A stretch of DNA of 64,000 nt from Simplicispira hankyongi. GTDB taxonomy: Bacteria > Pseudomonadota > Gammaproteobacteria > Burkholderiales > Burkholderiaceae_C. The notes beneath the pieces were generated by a model. It saw only the letters and a program-made list of their open reading frames with translations. It did not search any database and was not told the DNA's origin. Location: NCBI RefSeq assembly GCF_003570885.1, contig NZ_QXJC01000001.1, positions 1 through 64,000 of the forward strand, written 5' to 3'. Positions within the stretch are counted from its first letter, which is position 1. Each line of letters starts with the position of its first letter. Shown here in pieces: positions 129 through 59,387 of the stretch. The position numbers were made by a program, and so were the translations under genes.

Positions 129-227
129 GGGGGTTTCACTCCGGGGAAAAATGCAAACGGTAAAGACAAAGAGCGCAGGCGGGTGTCACGCAGGCGGTCT
201 TTGCCAAGAGGGTAGAAGTTCTGAATG

Positions 228-280
228 AATTTTGGTTCTAGCGCTTGACTGGAAAGCGCTGATAGCTATCAAAAATATAG
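228..280. repeat. palindromic intergenic repeat, copy 1
   Basis: An imperfect palindrome built on CTAGCGCTT ... AAAGCGCTGATAGCTATC, with an AT-rich end. It lies between the regulator gene and the aldehyde dehydrogenase start. It belongs to the same family as the copies near 10929, 21391, 30447, 37562, 54700 and 58094. No gene lies in 129-310. Confidence 0.75.
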
Positions 281-310
281 CTTTCTGTGGCGTGAAAACG
301 CGGTGTACGG

Positions 311-10836: not shown

Positions 10837-10848
10837 AACGGCGTGGCG

Positions 10849-10896
10849 CCGGCTTGGCCGCCGGCTTGGCCGCCGGCTTGGCCGCCGGCTTGGCCG
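10849..10896. repeat. four perfect tandem copies of a 12-bp unit
   Basis: The unit CCGGCTTGGCCG occurs four times without mismatch, followed by a partial CCGGCT at 10897-10902. It starts 13 bp after the alaS stop codon. Each unit can pair with itself (CCGGC...GCCGG), so it could form GC-rich hairpins in the alaS 3' end. Confidence 0.95.
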
Positions 10897-10919
10897 CCGG
10901 CTGCGGGCGGTGTTGGAAG

Positions 10920-12063: not shown

Positions 12064-12786
12064 TCAGGCGTGGCGCAAAAATACCAAATCCCACACCCCA
12101 TGCCCCAATTTCAGGCCGCGGTTCTCGAACTTGGTGAGCGGCCGATAGGCCGGTTGCGGCGCGTAGCCTGGTGCGGTGTTGGTCAGCAGCGGCTCGGCAG
12201 AGAGCACTTGCAGCATTTGCTCGGCATAAGGCTGCCAGTCGGTGGCGCAGTGCAAATAGCCGCCAGGCGCCAGACGCGAGGCCAGCCGCGCCACCAAAGC
12301 GGTCTGGATGAGGCGGCGTTTGTGGTGCTTTTTCTTGTGCCAGGGGTCGGGAAAGAAAATGTGCACGCCGGCCAGGCTGCCGGGCGCGACCATGTGCTCC
12401 AGCACCTCGACGGCGTCGTGCTGGACGATGCGGATATTGGTCTGCCCCTGCTCGGCAATGCGCTTGAGCAGGGCCCCCACACCGGCCTCGTGCACTTCGC
12501 AGCAGAGGAAATTGTCTTGCGGCCGCACGCTGGCAATGTGGGCCGTGGCTTCGCCCATGCCAAAGCCGATCTCCAAGATGAGCGGGGCACTGCGCCCAAA
12601 CACGGCGGCCGGCTCCAGCGTTGATTCCTGGTAGGGCACCAGCAGTTGCGGGCCCAGGCTCTCAAAGGCCCGCGCCTGCGCCGCTGTGGTGCGGCCAGCA
12701 CGGCGCACAAAGCTCTTGATGGTTTTGGGATAGGCAACGCCAGGCGGAGCGCCGACGATTGCAGTATCTGGAACGTGTGGTGTCAC
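12064..12786 (-). CDS. trmB: tRNA (guanine-N7-)-methyltransferase
   Basis: A 240-residue SAM-dependent methyltransferase that modifies G46 in tRNA. Key features are the SAM motif [32 protein letters not shown], and the TrmB signature [19 protein letters not shown]. The [12 protein letters not shown] segment is also typical. The chosen start is a GTG at 12784-12786 that overlaps the gluQ stop codon (GTGA); no suitable ATG precedes the conserved part without running into gluQ. It is translated together with gluQ, linking two tRNA-modification genes. Confidence 0.93.
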
Positions 12787-13733
12787 GGGGTGGGATTGTA
12801 GAGAGCGCGCCAAGCCATCACCCAGTGTGCCAGTGCATCCGCGACGCGGGTTTGCGTTGGAACAGGGGGCAAGTCCAAGGTTTCCGCTGCGCGTTGCAGC
12901 GCATTCAGCGGTGCAGAGGTGTCCAGCGGTGGCGCGCCATGTTGCTTGGAGAGTTTCTCGCCGTCGGCACCGCGCACCAGCGGCGTGTGCAGATAGCGCG
13001 GGGTGGGGAGGCCGAGCGCCGCCTGCAGCAGCATCTGGCGCGGCGTGTTGTCGGCCAGGTCTTCGCCGCGCACCACATGGGTGATGCCCTGGGCGGCGTC
13101 GTCCACCACCACGGCCAGCTGGTAGGCCCACAGGCCGTCGGCGCGCTGGAGGACGAAGTCGCCCACCTCGGTGGGTACGTTCTGCGTTTGCATGCCCAGG
13201 CGGCGGTCGATCCAGGTCAGCAGGTTGTTTGCTATTGAAAAACTAGCTATTCGCGCTTTTCCACATTGCGTTAACTGCCATTTTGACCAATATTTTTCAC
13301 AGGCAAAGCGCCAGGCGCGCGGTGCACGGCCCTGCAGGCCGATGCGGCATGTACCGGGGTAGGGCAGGGGGTGGTGGCGCGTCGGGATGCGACCCGCCGC
13401 CGCGTGCGCCGCAGCAATGTCGGCGCGCGAACAAGCGCAAGGGTAGGCCAGGCCCGAGCGCACCAGTGCGTCGAGCGCTTGTTGGTAGGCGGCGGTGTGC
13501 TGCGACTGCCACAGCGGCGCCTCGTCGGCCTGCAGGCCGAGGTCGGCGAGCTGGCGCAACAGGGTCTCACCCGCTTGTGGGCTACAGCGGGGGGTGTCCA
13601 CGTCTTCGATGCGCACCAGCCAGCGGCCGCCAGCCGCGCGCGCATCAAGCCAGCTGGCCAGCGCCGCCACCAGGGAACCTGCGTGCAGCACGCCGGTGGG
13701 GGATGGGGCAAAGCGGCCCACGTAGGCGACCAT
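12783..13733 (-). CDS. gluQ: glutamyl-Q tRNA(Asp) synthetase
   Basis: A 316-residue truncated glutamyl-tRNA synthetase paralogue that attaches glutamate to queuosine in tRNA-Asp. The class I signature is present as [13 protein letters not shown] (HIGH-like) and KLSKQHGA (KMSKS-like), and the zinc-site region is reduced to YPCACSR. An unusual AT-rich segment, 13226-13300, encodes roughly [20 protein letters not shown]. At the DNA level it is a degenerate copy of the palindromic repeat scattered between genes here, read in frame. The protein resumes the family pattern right after it ([16 protein letters not shown]). The ATG at 13733 directly precedes the conserved N-terminus. Confidence 0.92.
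13226..13300. repeat. palindromic repeat inside the gluQ reading frame, copy 4
   Basis: On the plus strand: GAAAAACTAGCTATTCGCG, CTTTTCCACATTGCGTTAAC, then TGCCATTTTGACC. The block order (AAAA, AGCTATT, GCGCTTTTCCA, GCGTT, GGCC-like, ATTTTGA) matches the intergenic repeat family. It has low GC compared with the flanking gluQ sequence and contains no stop in the gluQ frame. Confidence 0.65.
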
Positions 13734-20694: not shown

Positions 20695-21387
20695 ATGTCT
20701 GAACCCTCCGCACTCTCCACACCCATTATTGCCGTGGAGAAGCTGTGCAAGTCGGTGACCGACTCCACCGGCACGCTGCAGATCCTGCGCGACATCGATT
20801 TCACCGTGGCACCGCGTGCCACCGTGGCCATCGTCGGGGCCTCGGGCTCGGGCAAGAGCACACTGCTGTCCCTCATCGCCGGGCTCGATACGCCCACCAG
20901 CGGAACGGTGCGCCTGGCCGGGCAGGATCTGTTTGCCCTGGACGAAGACGAGCGCGCCGCGCTGCGCGCCCGGCAGGTGGGCTTCGTGTTCCAGAGCTTC
21001 CAGCTCATGGCCAACCTCACAGCGCTGGAGAATGTCATGCTGCCGCTGGAACTGGCCAACCGGCCGGGTGCCCGCCGTGCGGCGCAGGAGATGCTGGCGC
21101 ACGTGGGCCTGGCGCAGCGGTTGAACCACTATCCCAAGGTGCTCTCGGGCGGCGAACAGCAGCGGGTGGCGCTGGCGCGCGCCTTTGTCGTGCAGCCCTC
21201 GGTGCTGCTGGCCGATGAGCCCACCGGCAGCCTCGACTTCGCCACCGGCGAGACCATCATGGAACTGATGTTCCGCCTCAACCGCGAGCAGGGGACGACG
21301 CTGGTGCTGGTCACCCACGACCGCGGCATTGCCGAGCGCTGTGACACCAGCATCACCATTGAAGCCGGAGCAGTGGTAAAAACTTAA
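20695..21387 (+). CDS. ybbA: ABC transporter ATP-binding protein (YbbA/LolD type)
   Basis: A 230-residue ATPase with Walker A GASGSGKST, signature LSGGEQQRVALARAF, Walker B VLLADEPTGSLD and H-loop VTHD. It belongs to the MacB/LolD/YbbA group, and the divergent tesA gene supports YbbA. A YbbP/FtsX-like permease normally accompanies it, but the next gene is rlmB, so the partner must lie elsewhere. The start ATG is at 20695. Confidence 0.85.
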   Translation: MSEPSALSTPIIAVEKLCKSVTDSTGTLQILRDIDFTVAPRATVAIVGASGSGKSTLLSLIAGLDTPTSGTVRLAGQDLFALDEDERAALRARQVGFVFQSFQLMANLTALENVMLPLELANRPGARRAAQEMLAHVGLAQRLNHYPKVLSGGEQQRVALARAFVVQPSVLLADEPTGSLDFATGETIMELMFRLNREQGTTLVLVTHDRGIAERCDTSITIEAGAVVKT

Positions 21388-21390
21388 AGT

Positions 21391-21441
21391 CTTTTTGGCC
21401 TCTAGCGCTTATGGGGTAAGCGCTTGCAGCTATGAAAAATG
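21391..21441. repeat. palindromic intergenic repeat, copy 5
   Basis: CTTTTTGGCCTCTAGCGCTT, ATGGGGTAAGCGCTTGCAGC, then TATGAAAAATG. A near-canonical copy between the ybbA-like gene and rlmB. Confidence 0.85.
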
Positions 21442-21471
21442 TAGTTTATCCGCCGCCCGGATAATCTCCCC

Positions 21472-30434: not shown

Positions 30435-30446
30435 CAGAAATCAAGT

Positions 30447-30496
30447 AAAAATGGCCTCTAGCGCTTATCTGTCTTGCGTGAGCAGCTATACATTTT
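30447..30496. repeat. palindromic intergenic repeat, copy 6
   Basis: AAAAATGGCCTCTAGCGCTT, then CTTGCGTGAGCAGCTATACA and TTTT. The second arm is partly degenerate. It lies between the AI-2E-family gene and the chromate transporter pair. Confidence 0.75.
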
Positions 30497-30546
30497 GGGG
30501 TATTCAAGCGCGAGGGCGGATGTCAGGGGCGAACGTAGCCTCGCAC

Positions 30547-31605: not shown

Positions 31606-31831
31606 GGTGGGACTGTAACGGTGCAGTCGGGATGGGTGGCATGGGCGGGCCAGGCCAAGAATGTACGCGAGAGCGTCCGCAAGCGCGCTGAAAGCCTATC
31701 GGTGGCACAATACCGCCCGTACCAAGGCCCTTCCCCAGCCACAGTCGCATCCGCCAATCGGTTCAGCCGTGTCGCGGAAGGTTTCTTAAACCACCTAATG
31801 CTTTCTGGAGAAAGCGAAAGGCCCGCGGAAT

Positions 31832-37547: not shown

Positions 37548-37561
37548 CTTGAAATTTGTAG

Positions 37562-37611
37562 TGAAATAGGGCGCTAGCGCTTACTGGATAAGCGCTGGCA
37601 GCTATAAGTTT
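37562..37611. repeat. palindromic intergenic repeat, copy 7
   Basis: GGGCGCTAGCGCTTACTGGA, then TAAGCGCTGGCAGCTATAAG. A near-canonical copy directly between lpdA and zapE; it ends about 17 bp before the likely zapE start. Confidence 0.85.
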
Positions 37612-37628
37612 AGTAACAAAGGCGTTGT

Positions 37629-49734: not shown

Positions 49735-50144
49735 TGTTGGCAGGCGCAGCGAAATCGCGATCCAACCCCAATCCCCGACAGGGCCGTGCGCGCTGGCCGC
49801 GACCTGAGTTTCAGAATCCGGAAAAAATAACTCAAAAACAGGAGCTGCTAGCGCATGAGCAACGAGCGCTAGAGGCCGATTTTGATACTGAAAAACCGCT
49901 ATCAAAAACAGAGTCTTCTAAATCACGGCAACACCCCTGGCCAGCCACCCTCCCCGAGCAGGTCCGCGCCGTAGCCGAAGCCCTGGCCCGCAGCCCCGCA
50001 CCGCTCACACCGCCCGCGCTGGAAGCACACTTCAAAGGCCGTGGCCCCTGGAAGAAGGGCTTGCCCACGCTGCCGCAAACGCTGGAAGCCCTGGGCCGCG
50101 CGCAGGCGGTAGCGGTGGAAGGCGCGGCCGCGTGGTGGGGGTGA
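49731..50144 (+). CDS. probable gene remnant; C-terminal domain resembling DNA-methyltransferase tails
   Basis: An open frame of 137 codons without any ATG or GTG upstream of its conserved part; the only start is a TTG inside the clpA terminator. The last 70 residues (LPEQVRAVAEALARSPAPLT; AHFKGRGPWKKGLPTLPQTL; EALGRAQAV) look like a small winged-helix tail that I recall at the C-terminus of some Eco57I-type DNA methyltransferases. The first part is largely palindromic repeat sequence (49831-49890) read in frame. It is most simply a decayed fragment, although a short expressed protein is possible. Outside this frame, 50145-50287 holds nothing I can identify. Confidence 0.4.
   Translation: MLLAGAAKSRSNPNPRQGRARWPRPEFQNPEKITQKQELLAHEQRALEADFDTEKPLSKTESSKSRQHPWPATLPEQVRAVAEALARSPAPLTPPALEAHFKGRGPWKKGLPTLPQTLEALGRAQAVAVEGAAAWWG
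49831..49890. repeat. palindromic repeat, copy 8, inside the remnant frame
   Basis: CTCAAAAACAGGAGCTGCTA, GCGCATGAGCAACGAGCGCT, then AGAGGCCGATTTTGATACTG. The family core is present with AGCTGCTAGCGC and GAGCGCTAGAGGCC. CGCTATCAAAAA at 49898-49909 may be a further partial piece. Confidence 0.75.
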
Positions 50145-53382: not shown

Positions 53383-54699
<1,317 letters not shown>

Positions 54700-54747
54700 A
54701 TTGATAGCTGCTATCGCTTATGAGGTAAGCGCTAGAGGCTATTTTTG
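54700..54747. repeat. palindromic intergenic repeat, copy 9
   Basis: ATTGATAGCTGCTATCGCTT, ATGAGGTAAGCGCTAGAGGC, then TATTTTTGTG. It begins just after the kinase stop and runs into the last codons of the convergent binding-protein gene. Confidence 0.85.
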
Positions 54748-56085
54748 TGTAAATTTTGAAATCGCTGCACCCGCTGTGTGTGCTGCCGCCGCCCAGTCGT
54801 GCTGGGCCTGCGCTGGGCGGTAAGCGGCGTCGTTCCACAGCCGGTCGATGAGCGACTCCAGAGCCTTGTGCATCGGCTCTGGCAGCGCCATGCGGTGGGC
54901 CACCGATGGCACCAGCGTGTTGGCCAGGCGCGCCGCCAGAAAGTAGGCGCTCGACTCTTTGGCGCAGGCATCAAAGGGCGCCATGTCCACCCCGGGGGTG
55001 ACGGGAATGGAGCCCTTGGCCAGGTTGAAGTTGCGCTGGAAATCCAGGCTGGTCACCGCATGGGCCAGGGCATTTTGCTCGGCGGTGGCCTCGGGGTTGG
55101 TCCCTTGGCGAAAGACGGCCAGGCTGTCGACCACATAGTCGTAGACGGTGGCGCCGCCTGGCGTGGAGGCGCACAAAAAATCGCGATCGGGCACCTGTTT
55201 CGCGGCCAGGAATTCACCCTTGGCCCAATCGCCCATGACCTGCATGGCCGCCTTGCCTGCAATGACCTGCGCCGTAGCGGCGTTCCAATCCTGGCTGGAG
55301 GCGGCGTCAGAGGCCTTGGCAGGCACAGTCAGGGGTTTGAGTGCGACAAAGGTTTGCATGGCGCGCTCCATCGTGGCGCCTCCAATGGCGGCGGGGTCGC
55401 CCTGCACCAGGGCGTGCCGGTAAAAATCTGCGCCGCCCGTGCCCAGCACCACGGTCTCGAACAGCGTCAGGTTCTGCCAGGGTTGGTTGCCGTGGGCCAG
55501 CGGGGTGATGCCGGCTTGCTGCAGGCGCTCGGCCAGCTGAAAGAACTGTGGCCAGCTCTGCGGCGCGCGCCCCTGCACTTGTGCCAGCAGGTGGCGGTTG
55601 ATGTACAGCCAGTTCACCCGGTGCACGTTGACCGGCACGGCGACATAGGTGTCCTTGTACTTCACCTGTTCGGCAATCTGGCGCGGAATTTGGTAATCCC
55701 AGTGGTCCGATTTCGCCAATGCATTCAGCGATGCCAGCGCCCCCTGGTCGCCCCATTGGGCCAGGTCAGCGGCTTTCATCTGCACCGCATCGGGCGCACG
55801 GTGCGCGGCGATGCGCTCGCTCAGGATCTTGGCCAGGGCGTCGGCGTCGCCGGCCACCGTGGGAGTCTTGAGCGTGAGGCCTTGTGTGGCCAGGGTCGCG
55901 CGCAGCGATTCCACGGCCCGGGCCTCGCCCCCGGAGGTCCACCAGTGCAGCAACTCCACCTCGGCGGCTGCCGCTGGCGTGAGGGCGGTGGTGAACAGCA
56001 GCGCCGCCGCCAGCAGGCTTTTGACGCGGAATGGCCCCGACAGCATCAGGGGGCGCGGGGCAGGCTGGCGAGAGGTGGGGGACAT
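54739..56085 (-). CDS. periplasmic binding protein, sugar (MalE/SBP_bac_1) type, without transporter genes
   Basis: A 448-residue protein. The N-terminal signal (about residues 20-41, LLAAALLFTTALTPAAAAEV) leads into a cluster-B binding protein: VELLHWWTSGGEARAVESLR, YVAVPVNVHRVNWLYINRHL, GKAAMQVMGDWAKGEFLAAK. This pattern is typical of glucose/mannose-like binding proteins. A perfect AGGAGG lies before the ATG. No ATPase or permease gene is adjacent. The gene follows a chemoreceptor gene by 23 bp in the same direction, suggesting a sensing rather than a transport role. The last codons overlap a palindromic repeat. Confidence 0.88.
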   Translation of the reverse strand: MSPTSRQPAPRPLMLSGPFRVKSLLAAALLFTTALTPAAAAEVELLHWWTSGGEARAVESLRATLATQGLTLKTPTVAGDADALAKILSERIAAHRAPDAVQMKAADLAQWGDQGALASLNALAKSDHWDYQIPRQIAEQVKYKDTYVAVPVNVHRVNWLYINRHLLAQVQGRAPQSWPQFFQLAERLQQAGITPLAHGNQPWQNLTLFETVVLGTGGADFYRHALVQGDPAAIGGATMERAMQTFVALKPLTVPAKASDAASSQDWNAATAQVIAGKAAMQVMGDWAKGEFLAAKQVPDRDFLCASTPGGATVYDYVVDSLAVFRQGTNPEATAEQNALAHAVTSLDFQRNFNLAKGSIPVTPGVDMAPFDACAKESSAYFLAARLANTLVPSVAHRMALPEPMHKALESLIDRLWNDAAYRPAQAQHDWAAAAHTAGAAISKFTQK

Positions 56086-57891: not shown

Positions 57892-58093
57892 TGGCCCGTC
57901 CCTGCAGCCGTATGGGATTTACCCTGAGCCGCGTGGGCGGCCATGGGGCATGGGTCTGCTGGTCAAGGCGTGGCAAGGTCACCGTCCGTACGGGGCCGAT
58001 GGGTCCGATGCCTTGACTGCCATCTCGTGCGCTTTGCTGCGCTAGAAGTTGCCGGGCGAGCACTCGAACAACAAGGCTAGCAGCACGTGTTTC

Positions 58094-58148
58094 TATAAAA
58101 ATTAATAGCATTCAGCGCTTATGGGATAAGCGCTAGAGCCCAATTTAA
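58094..58148. repeat. palindromic intergenic repeat, copy 10
   Basis: TATAAAAATTAATAGCATTC, AGCGCTTATGGGATAAGCGC, then TAGAGCCCAATTT. Near-canonical; it sits just beyond the 3' end of the membrane protein gene at 58158. Confidence 0.85.
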
Positions 58149-58157
58149 CCTAAAGTT

Positions 58158-59387
58158 TCACCCAAAAAACCAATAACAAACCCCAATCGCCGCCAACACC
58201 CCCGCCAGCTCCGCCAGCAGCGCGCAAGGCACCGCATGCCGCACCCGCTGAATGCCCACCGCGCCAAAGTACACCGCCAGCACATAAAACGTGGTTTCCG
58301 TGCTGCCCTGCGCCGTGGCCGCCACCAGCGCAGGGAAGCTGTCCACGCCCTTGGTCTGCATGGTCTCGATCAGCATGGCGCGCGCGGCGCTGCCCGAGAA
58401 CGGTTTGACCAGCGCGGTCGGCAAGGCATCGACAAAGCGGGTGTCCCAGCCCGCGCCTTCGACCAGCCAGCGGATGCCGTCGAGCGCGTAGCCCAGCGCG
58501 CCGGACGCGCGCAGCACGCCCACGGCGCAGAGCATGGCCACCAAATAGGGCAGCAGGTTGCGCGCCACGTCGAATCCCTCGCGCGCGCCCTCGACAAACG
58601 CCTCGTACACCGGCACGCGCCGCCAGGCGCCGAGGAGCACGAAGAGCAGGACCAGGCCGAACAGCGTGAGGTTGCCCGCGAGCGACGAGAGGTGTGCCAG
58701 CGCGGTGGCGCCCAGCGTGGAAAGGAAGGCCACCAGCGCGGCGATAGCCAGCGCCAGCGGCAGCAGGTAGGCGAGCACCACGGGGCTCCAGATGGGCAGG
58801 CGCTGCACCACGGCCACGCTCAGCAGCCCGACCAGGGTAGAGGCCGAGGTGGCGAGCAGGATGGGCACGAACACCAGCGTCGGGTCGGGTGCGCCTTGCT
58901 GCAGGCGGTACATGAAGATGGTGACGGGCAGCAGCGTGAGCGACGAGGCGTTGAGCACCAGGAACAGGATTTGTGCGTTGGTGGCGGTCTCGGGCTCGGG
59001 GTTCAGGCTTTGCAGCGAATGCATGGCCTTGAGGCCAATGGGTGTGGCGGCGTTGTCCAGCCCGAGCGCGTTGGCGGCGAAGTTGAGCGTCATCAGGCCC
59101 AGCGCCGGATGGCCGCGTGGCACGCCGGGCATGAGGTGGGCGAACAGTGGCGAGAGCCAGCGCGCCAGGGTTTCGACCAGGCCGGCGCGCTCGGCAATGC
59201 GCAAAAAGCCCAGCCAGAGCGTGAGGGTGCCAAACAGCAGCAGCATGACCTCGACCGAGAGCTTGGCCATGGCAAACAGGGCCTCGACCATGGCAGCAAA
59301 CACCTGGGCGTTGCCGCCGGCCAGCCACTGCACCAGCGCGGCGAGGGCAGAGGTGACGAAAAAACCCAGCCAGAGGGTGTTGAGCAT
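58158..59387 (-). CDS. nucleoside-recognition (Gate) domain membrane protein, SpmA/SpmB-like fusion
   Basis: A 409-residue protein with about ten transmembrane helices in two halves. The first carries [40 protein letters not shown] and LKAMHSLQ. The second has [20 protein letters not shown] and [20 protein letters not shown] with [20 protein letters not shown]. These are the signatures of the spore maturation proteins SpmA and SpmB joined in one chain, as found in many non-sporulating proteobacteria; the function is unknown. The ATG at 59387 starts the conserved first helix ([11 protein letters not shown]). A long inverted repeat begins only 4 bp upstream of it. Confidence 0.85.

Follow-up and report, generated by a model that had tools for sequence, protein, structure and literature searches.

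A genome-wide AT-rich palindromic DNA motif read in frame within gluQ and other genes of Comamonadaceae

Palindromic repeats that lie between genes and are also read in frame within them have been described in Rickettsia as Rickettsia palindromic elements (RPE; PMC10969869, in excerpt). A related arrangement is reported here for a 64,000-nucleotide stretch of Simplicispira hankyongi DNA (positions 1 to 64,000 of contig NZ_QXJC01000001.1, assembly GCF_003570885.1; hereafter the window). Its gluQ gene, encoding tRNA glutamyl-Q(34) synthetase, contains a segment that is one coding-sequence copy of a palindromic, strand-asymmetric, AT-rich DNA motif. The motif is about 68 bp long, and this 3.71-Mb GC-rich Comamonadaceae genome has at least 150 copies of it. 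The best explanation overall, to which we assign a probability of about 0.6, is a motif driven at the DNA level and read as protein in many genes.

The closest described systems each share part of this behavior. As with RPE, there are in-frame insertions into conserved open reading frames, with net gains in gluQ, uvrA and waaA and in-frame copies in about 20 genes. RPE insertions add the element's own length, and an RPE carries an open frame for a conserved peptide; neither is seen here, in the first case among 12 genes compared and in the second because the gluQ frame is open in only 1 of 31 canonical copies. There is also just one 68-bp motif, and several of its gene copies add no length. 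A sequence-only reading of the window had proposed a repeat domesticated as protein, comparable in principle to RPE. That a repeat is read as protein stands, but it is not one domesticated insertion, as some 20 genes are involved, several without length change, and synonymous sites are element-like across genera.

The DNA uptake sequences of Neisseria and the uptake signal sequences of Pasteurellaceae likewise occur in hundreds of chromosomal copies in and between genes, with inverted-repeat forms between genes (PMC2346458, in excerpt), and occupy permissive sites of core genes (PMC2397512, in excerpt). Their motifs are 10-12 bp long (PMC2346458, in excerpt), as against 68 bp and about 80 bits for the present motif. 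Repetitive extragenic palindromic (REP) sequences, which are associated with the RAYT transposases, are also short palindromic repeats, often with more than 100 per genome (PMC2817692, in excerpt), although they are 20-40 bp long (PMC3733652, in excerpt) and in the genus the occurrence of RAYT-like genes does not follow that of the element. The BRE repeat of Bordetella and Comamonadaceae is 75-91 bp long with some copies wholly inside coding sequences, but is ~69% GC and sometimes tandem (PMC3110155, in excerpt), whereas the 31 canonical copies here have GC contents of 0.33-0.47 and are dispersed; the two are set apart here by their descriptions. A literature search outside subscription journals found no paper on this element, and a term look-up in two REP papers found five Comamonadaceae genera unmentioned.

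The in-frame motif copy in gluQ

The gluQ gene occupies positions 12783..13733 on the minus strand and is intact (316 aa plus stop). Its product belongs to the GluQRS equivalog NF004313 (432.8 bits, NCBIfam) and is 87% identical to that of a Giesbergeria sp. metagenome-assembled genome (locus L208). The degenerate motif copy lies in frame at 13224..13296 on the minus strand, where GC content is 0.36, and the 27-residue GluQ stretch there contains the peptide singled out earlier from the sequence. A covariance model built from the seven other aligned copies in the window, with gluQ left out of training, matches this segment over the full 1-73 register and in the orientation of gluQ, with 17.2 bits and an E-value of 0.68 in 64 kb. 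An nhmmer profile of 31 copies gives it 10.9 bits, against a best score of 6.9 bits in element-free congeners (33 loci, 118,675 bases), and the best non-self BLAST match of the segment to its own genome is 90% over 30 bases (E 1e-4). By DNA alone the window copy is thus weak and near noise, and the case rests on its orthologs. Among the 30 best family gluQ loci, 15 have inserts matching the model (E<=10) in the same place and in gluQ orientation, the best at 44.5 bits and five at E<=1.1e-4; a further 12 of 80 loci also match at the insert. Weaker opposite-strand matches are shadows of the palindrome, and the top-scoring row of the 30-locus search comes from another copy, which lies in the flank of L027.

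Codon choice gives a second line of evidence. Loop codons were swapped for synonyms drawn from the rest of the same gene and the resulting DNA was rescored against the motif; the window copy has a z score of 7.2. In the family, 110 gluQ loci were read and 83 could be parsed by their flanking patterns, giving 27 short loops (9-18 aa) and 56 long ones (22-47 aa). Forty-nine of the 56 long loops have z>=3, which is an element-like codon choice beyond what the protein explains. Of the remaining seven, five are GC-rich (L088, L098, L108, L110, L130) and two give a weak signal (L079, L083). As a control, 357 windows from other parts of these genes have a mean z of -0.13; two of them reach z>=3 and none reaches 4. 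GC content in 51 accepted inserts is 0.34-0.66, compared to 0.58-0.78 in the remainder of the gene; this class was set partly by z>=1.9, and 49/56 is the uncensored count. The 27 loci that failed parsing include 13 with only half a gene (the alignment splits at the site, as it does for short loops), nine with a long segment, and five others. Among 80 named gluQ loci there are 31 short, 34 long (29 with z>=3), four middle and 11 unparsed loops.

Since ortholog matches fall in the same place and orientation and the resemblance is lost on codon resampling, the identity of the segment is secure, and we regard it as nearly certain that the motif is read as protein in gluQ. A likeness arising by chance, or from the base composition of an AT-rich loop, might suffice for the window copy alone (17.2 bits, E 0.68), but the resampling, the constant position and orientation across loci and the ceiling of 6.9 bits in the 33 element-free congener loci refute it and leave it a negligible probability. 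The sequence-only reading was correct in taking this AT-rich stretch for the repeat of the intergenic sites, in frame, and in expecting an added segment limited to part of the family: it is a net insertion relative to many relatives (+21 aa versus Giesbergeria anulus), and 27 of 83 parsed loci have the 9-18 aa loops. Distant GluQ proteins with a homologous segment of the same length lacking repeat-like DNA, which would have told against an insertion, were looked for and not encountered, given those 27 short loops and the nature of the 7 of 56 long loops with z<3, five of them GC-rich and two with a weak signal. Between matched stretches E. coli GluQ has 34 residues and window GluQ 69.

The segment had been placed at the anticodon side or in a linker, and this is not borne out by the AlphaFold model (pLDDT, the per-residue confidence score, 82), which puts it in a loop between strands 140-143 and 165-168, with residues 152-163 below 50; the predicted fold matches the E. 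coli GluQ-RS structures 4a91 and 1nzj. In 12 close pairs with no shared locus, omega is ~0.76 for the insert versus 0.22 for the remaining gluQ. Such near-neutral protein evolution is in keeping with a tolerated loop whose sequence is little constrained, and the motif would have been added between two strands of the catalytic domain. One stop is flagged in the gluQ match of each of G294, G219, G289, G194 (TGA) and G221 (TAA), and these may be alignment edges.

The motif and its copies in the genome

The seven copies used to train the model have scores between 64.5 and 75.5 bits. On the plus strand, one lies at the window edge (216..288, 65.3 bits, context not called) and three are intergenic (21380..21452, 73.5 bits; 30436..30508, 70.5 bits; 37552..37624, 75.5 bits). 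On the minus strand, two lie between convergent genes (49822..49894, 64.5 bits; 54685..54757, 73.6 bits) and a third is intergenic (58086..58158, 74.8 bits). Over the whole genome the motif is strongly over-represented in genes and between them, as uptake sequences are, the weakest of the at least 150 copies listed having an E-value of 5.6e-6. Motif statistics were taken from 59 own-genome copies, pre-selected at >=40 bits. The outer ten-column blocks have GC contents of 0.20 and 0.34 compared to ~0.65 outside, the left edge is abrupt while the right fades across ~5 bases, and in the core some letters are invariant and others variable.

A palindrome between genes could serve as a terminator or mRNA stabilizer, with gene copies as by-products of an RNA or DNA hairpin. 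In favor of this are the palindromic core and the placement of the 30 best copies (14 between tandem, 12 between convergent and one between divergent genes, with three at edges or overlaps; context from a home-made codon-usage gene caller). However, stem covariation is absent (91.1% paired cells versus 91.3% when shuffled), in gluQ and tex the motif can still be recognized outside its disrupted palindrome, and upkeep inside genes is left unexplained, so that we consider a hairpin function very unlikely. At gathering thresholds Rfam has no family covering the element in the window; a match away from it is the sucA RNA motif RF01070 at 31745-31827 on the plus strand (68.3 bits). A 12-bp tandem repeat at 10847-10906 is listed as four overlapping copies.

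The copies carry little sign of recent movement. No excess of close pairs is found among the 59, and their maximum identity of 0.808 is reached in 258 of 500 column shuffles. Searched with one consensus at E<=0.1, 72,556 plasmid records gave six matches and 50,697 phage records gave none. The plasmid matches are in NZ_CP049911 (Diaphorobacter), NC_004956 (Pseudomonas sp. ADP) and four more, and IMG/VR has one exact-pattern match to the element (L441).

Added residues and same-length rewriting in other genes

A profile of 16 gluQ inserts matches at least 150 places in the genome, of which 60 were examined with flanks. In about 20 genes including gluQ, an open frame runs through element-like DNA in one or the other orientation. 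One orientation is seen in gluQ, purK, hemD, rlmD, waaA, dnaX, hrpA, tex, dapE, and the genes for an RlmB-like methyltransferase, a NuoF-like subunit and an ABC permease; the orientation of gluQ is also shared by genes for an O-antigen-ligase-like protein, an aminotransferase and a TPM-like protein. The opposite orientation is found in recC, tlyA, uvrA, glmU and murD. The other in-gene copies score 18.5 to 56.4 bits by DNA, compared to 10.9 for gluQ. Curated NCBIfam cut-offs are passed by gluQ, purK, dnaX, glmU, rlmD, dapE and murD, while recC, uvrA and hrpA (partial reads) fall below them, as do hemD, tlyA, waaA, and the NuoF-like, RlmB-like, permease and aminotransferase genes. The name tex comes from a match to a solved Tex structure, and two proteins for which no family matched we take to be O-antigen-ligase-like and TPM-like. 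A PrmC-like second match in L318 (11.8 bits) was excluded as likely native, and a doubtful match in an RND gene (15.0 bits) was left uncounted.

In the aminotransferase and TPM-like frames the element copy stands at the very start and may supply the start codon. For the TPM-like protein (L164:676-1584, minus strand; own genome C17 near 23340) the copy appears to contribute the start codon together with a hydrophobic beginning that resembles a signal peptide (MPLALIRYTLAAIFLIAF...). Open reading frames beginning with an uptake sequence are reported in Neisseria (PMC2346458, in excerpt).

What the motif has done to protein length differs from gene to gene. Fourteen gene segments were submitted for ortholog comparison, 11 had usable orthologs, and tex was compared separately. 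Relative to the element-free congeners G300 and G301, net length differs by +21 aa in gluQ, +35 in uvrA, +14/+13 in waaA, +5 in dapE and +5 in tex, by +2/0 in rlmD, and by 0 in purK, 0 in glmU and 0/-1 in murD; values for hemD (-3, with the gap upstream of the segment), hrpA (-9/-2, in a variable linker) and tlyA (-70) are negative. The net change is not a constant +22 aa. Copies without net insertion, as an origin in place would give, are seen in purK, glmU and murD, but not in gluQ, uvrA and waaA, and the motif would be read in frame either as added residues or as a same-length rewriting of a native stretch. At the element site, tlyA of G300 and G301 (L396, L397) has ~70 more residues of unrelated sequence, making this a variable insertion site.

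The purK gene illustrates rewriting. Thirty loci were compared, each from a different genus. The segment is 23 aa long in 29 of them, but at the DNA level 16 resemble the element (z 2.6-8.8) and 14 are ordinary (z<=1.0). A solved homologue aligns across the segment without a gap. The unchanged length in purK and murD might suggest a coincidental resemblance, but this is countered by DNA scores of 44.5 and 38.3 bits. Element-type purK and the gluQ insert agree in all 16 genomes in which both loci were read (14 with, two without). The 19 element-type tex loci of the genus have z of 4.1-11.1, with two locus pairs sharing the same segment; three short-form tex loci (L370, L371, L377) are too short for the codon test.

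These lengths bear on the main rival, a non-autonomous mobile palindrome, akin to miniature inverted-repeat transposable elements or REPs and long active in Comamonadaceae, whose insertions survived in frame in the manner of RPE. Such an element readily explains the 21-residue gain in gluQ relative to two element-free congeners, the 68-bp length and the abrupt left edge, and it agrees with the gains in uvrA and waaA, the high information content, both orientations within genes, and the near-neutral evolution of the gluQ insert. Unequal lengths would then have come from trimming after insertion, from loss of native residues or from gene conversion among the copies. However, purK, glmU, murD and rlmD show little or no length change, the gluQ frame is stopped in 30 of 31 canonical copies (the best other frames are open in 17 and 10 of 31), and neither recent copies, among the 59 examined, nor more than the few plasmid matches were found. 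A RAYT-type Y1 transposase was considered as the mobilizer and rejected, as it does not track the element in the genus: it is present in the element-free G300 and G301 and in G303, and absent from the element-rich, 99% complete G141. We regard a mobile palindrome as possible, although doubtful.

Distribution, joint absence and a probable drive on the motif

Long AT-rich gluQ loops are found in records labeled Giesbergeria, Comamonas, Acidovorax, Polaromonas, Rhodoferax, Curvibacter, Variovorax and Tibeticola, and short ones in Delftia, Ramlibacter, Limnohabitans, Rhizobacter and Piscinibacter records; Giesbergeria, Hydrogenophaga, Polaromonas and Curvibacter labels are mixed, with both loop types. 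In other families of the order the gluQ match often splits around the insert (e.g. G353, query 4-146 and 173-305, 9 bases apart), and these split alignments are better outgroup evidence than the loops, which could be parsed in only a few of 29 loci. A single clean gain of the gluQ insert without loss is not supported, as the gluQ tree, although poorly resolved, needs 16-17 changes, at least four of them forced by well-supported branches. The simplest reading would be a gain before several genera split, followed by repeated loss.

Within the genus the gene copies and the genome-wide family have been lost together. The insert profile matches at least 124 places in 21 of 24 genomes compared to two in G300, seven in G301 and two in G303. 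Over 1482 bp G300 matches locus L212 of Giesbergeria anulus ATCC 35958 without a difference; G303 looks like a mixed bin, with one tex of each type. Neither G300 nor G301 has the added residues of gluQ, tex, uvrA, waaA and dapE. In a concatenated gluQ and purK tree the two fall within a clade (98/97) whose other seven members are element-rich, although branching order inside the genus lacks resolution (83/72) and three of the seven are represented by gluQ alone; loss of the element in the G300/G301 lineage is the simplest reading of this placement. In a survey of 80 genomes, 27 of them with a readable gluQ, the insert is present in all 11 with at least three element copies, compared to 8 of 16 with fewer (Fisher p 0.008). 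This survey used stricter filters and a one-genome model, so that zeros are lower bounds, and 17 of the 80 genomes match at E<=1e-4.

A motif driven at the DNA level is favored because it explains the same-length rewriting, the lack of young copies and the joint loss. On this view a process working across the genome at the level of DNA sequence would spread and maintain the copies, and genes able to encode the motif in a permissive stretch would come to carry it. The nearest parallel is the molecular drive of uptake sequences, the best-known example of this kind. Drive or selection at the DNA level is in itself a probable component of this account; that the motif is specifically an uptake sequence is a tentative proposal, made by analogy. 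On contig C13, one of two contigs tested, the spacing of copies (from the at least 150 listed) is more even than random, with 0.3% of simulations as even.

Several observations weigh against such a drive. On the larger contig C1, which holds the window, spacing is not more even than random (21% of simulations). The residues gained in gluQ (+21), uvrA (+35) and waaA (+13/14) are not what point mutation under drive would give. Pairwise synonymous divergence between close relatives is 0.374 in the gluQ insert and 0.362 elsewhere in the gene, i.e. equal; no DNA conservation is therefore visible at this distance, which counts against strong DNA-level selection on the gluQ copy. The motif information of ~80 bits, from copies pre-selected at >=40 bits, is far above the usual requirement of a binding site; descent of the copies from a mobile element accounts more easily for the 68-bp length. 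The spread of pairwise identity among the copies exceeds that of most shuffles, which hints at shared ancestry: 7 of 500 shuffles reach it, and 2 of 500 when only the columns outside the stem are taken. Genome G003 has 17 element copies and a purK segment that is not element-like (no gluQ was read there), and the gluQ insert is present in those 8 of 16 genomes with fewer than three detected copies. Finally, the gene list was obtained with a gluQ-frame profile as the probe, and is thus biased to sites with a similar peptide and a lower bound.

Whatever its origin, a non-coding DNA motif is seen here in translated form in many housekeeping proteins of a bacterial family that is free-living and GC-rich, and this explains odd AT-rich loops met with in annotating Comamonadaceae proteins. 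The gene list can be used for testing how enzymes tolerate the motif, and a natural comparison is at hand between element-rich genomes and Giesbergeria anulus. If the DNA-level drive is true, it would add to the neisserial and pasteurellacean uptake sequences another independent example of genome-wide motif drive shaping proteins. It is conceivable, though we hold it with reserve, that the Comamonadaceae have a long uptake-type or otherwise driven motif of their own, outside Neisseriaceae and Pasteurellaceae, which has rewritten or added stretches of 20-odd residues in many core enzymes, and that these vanish jointly when the system is lost, as may have happened in Giesbergeria anulus.
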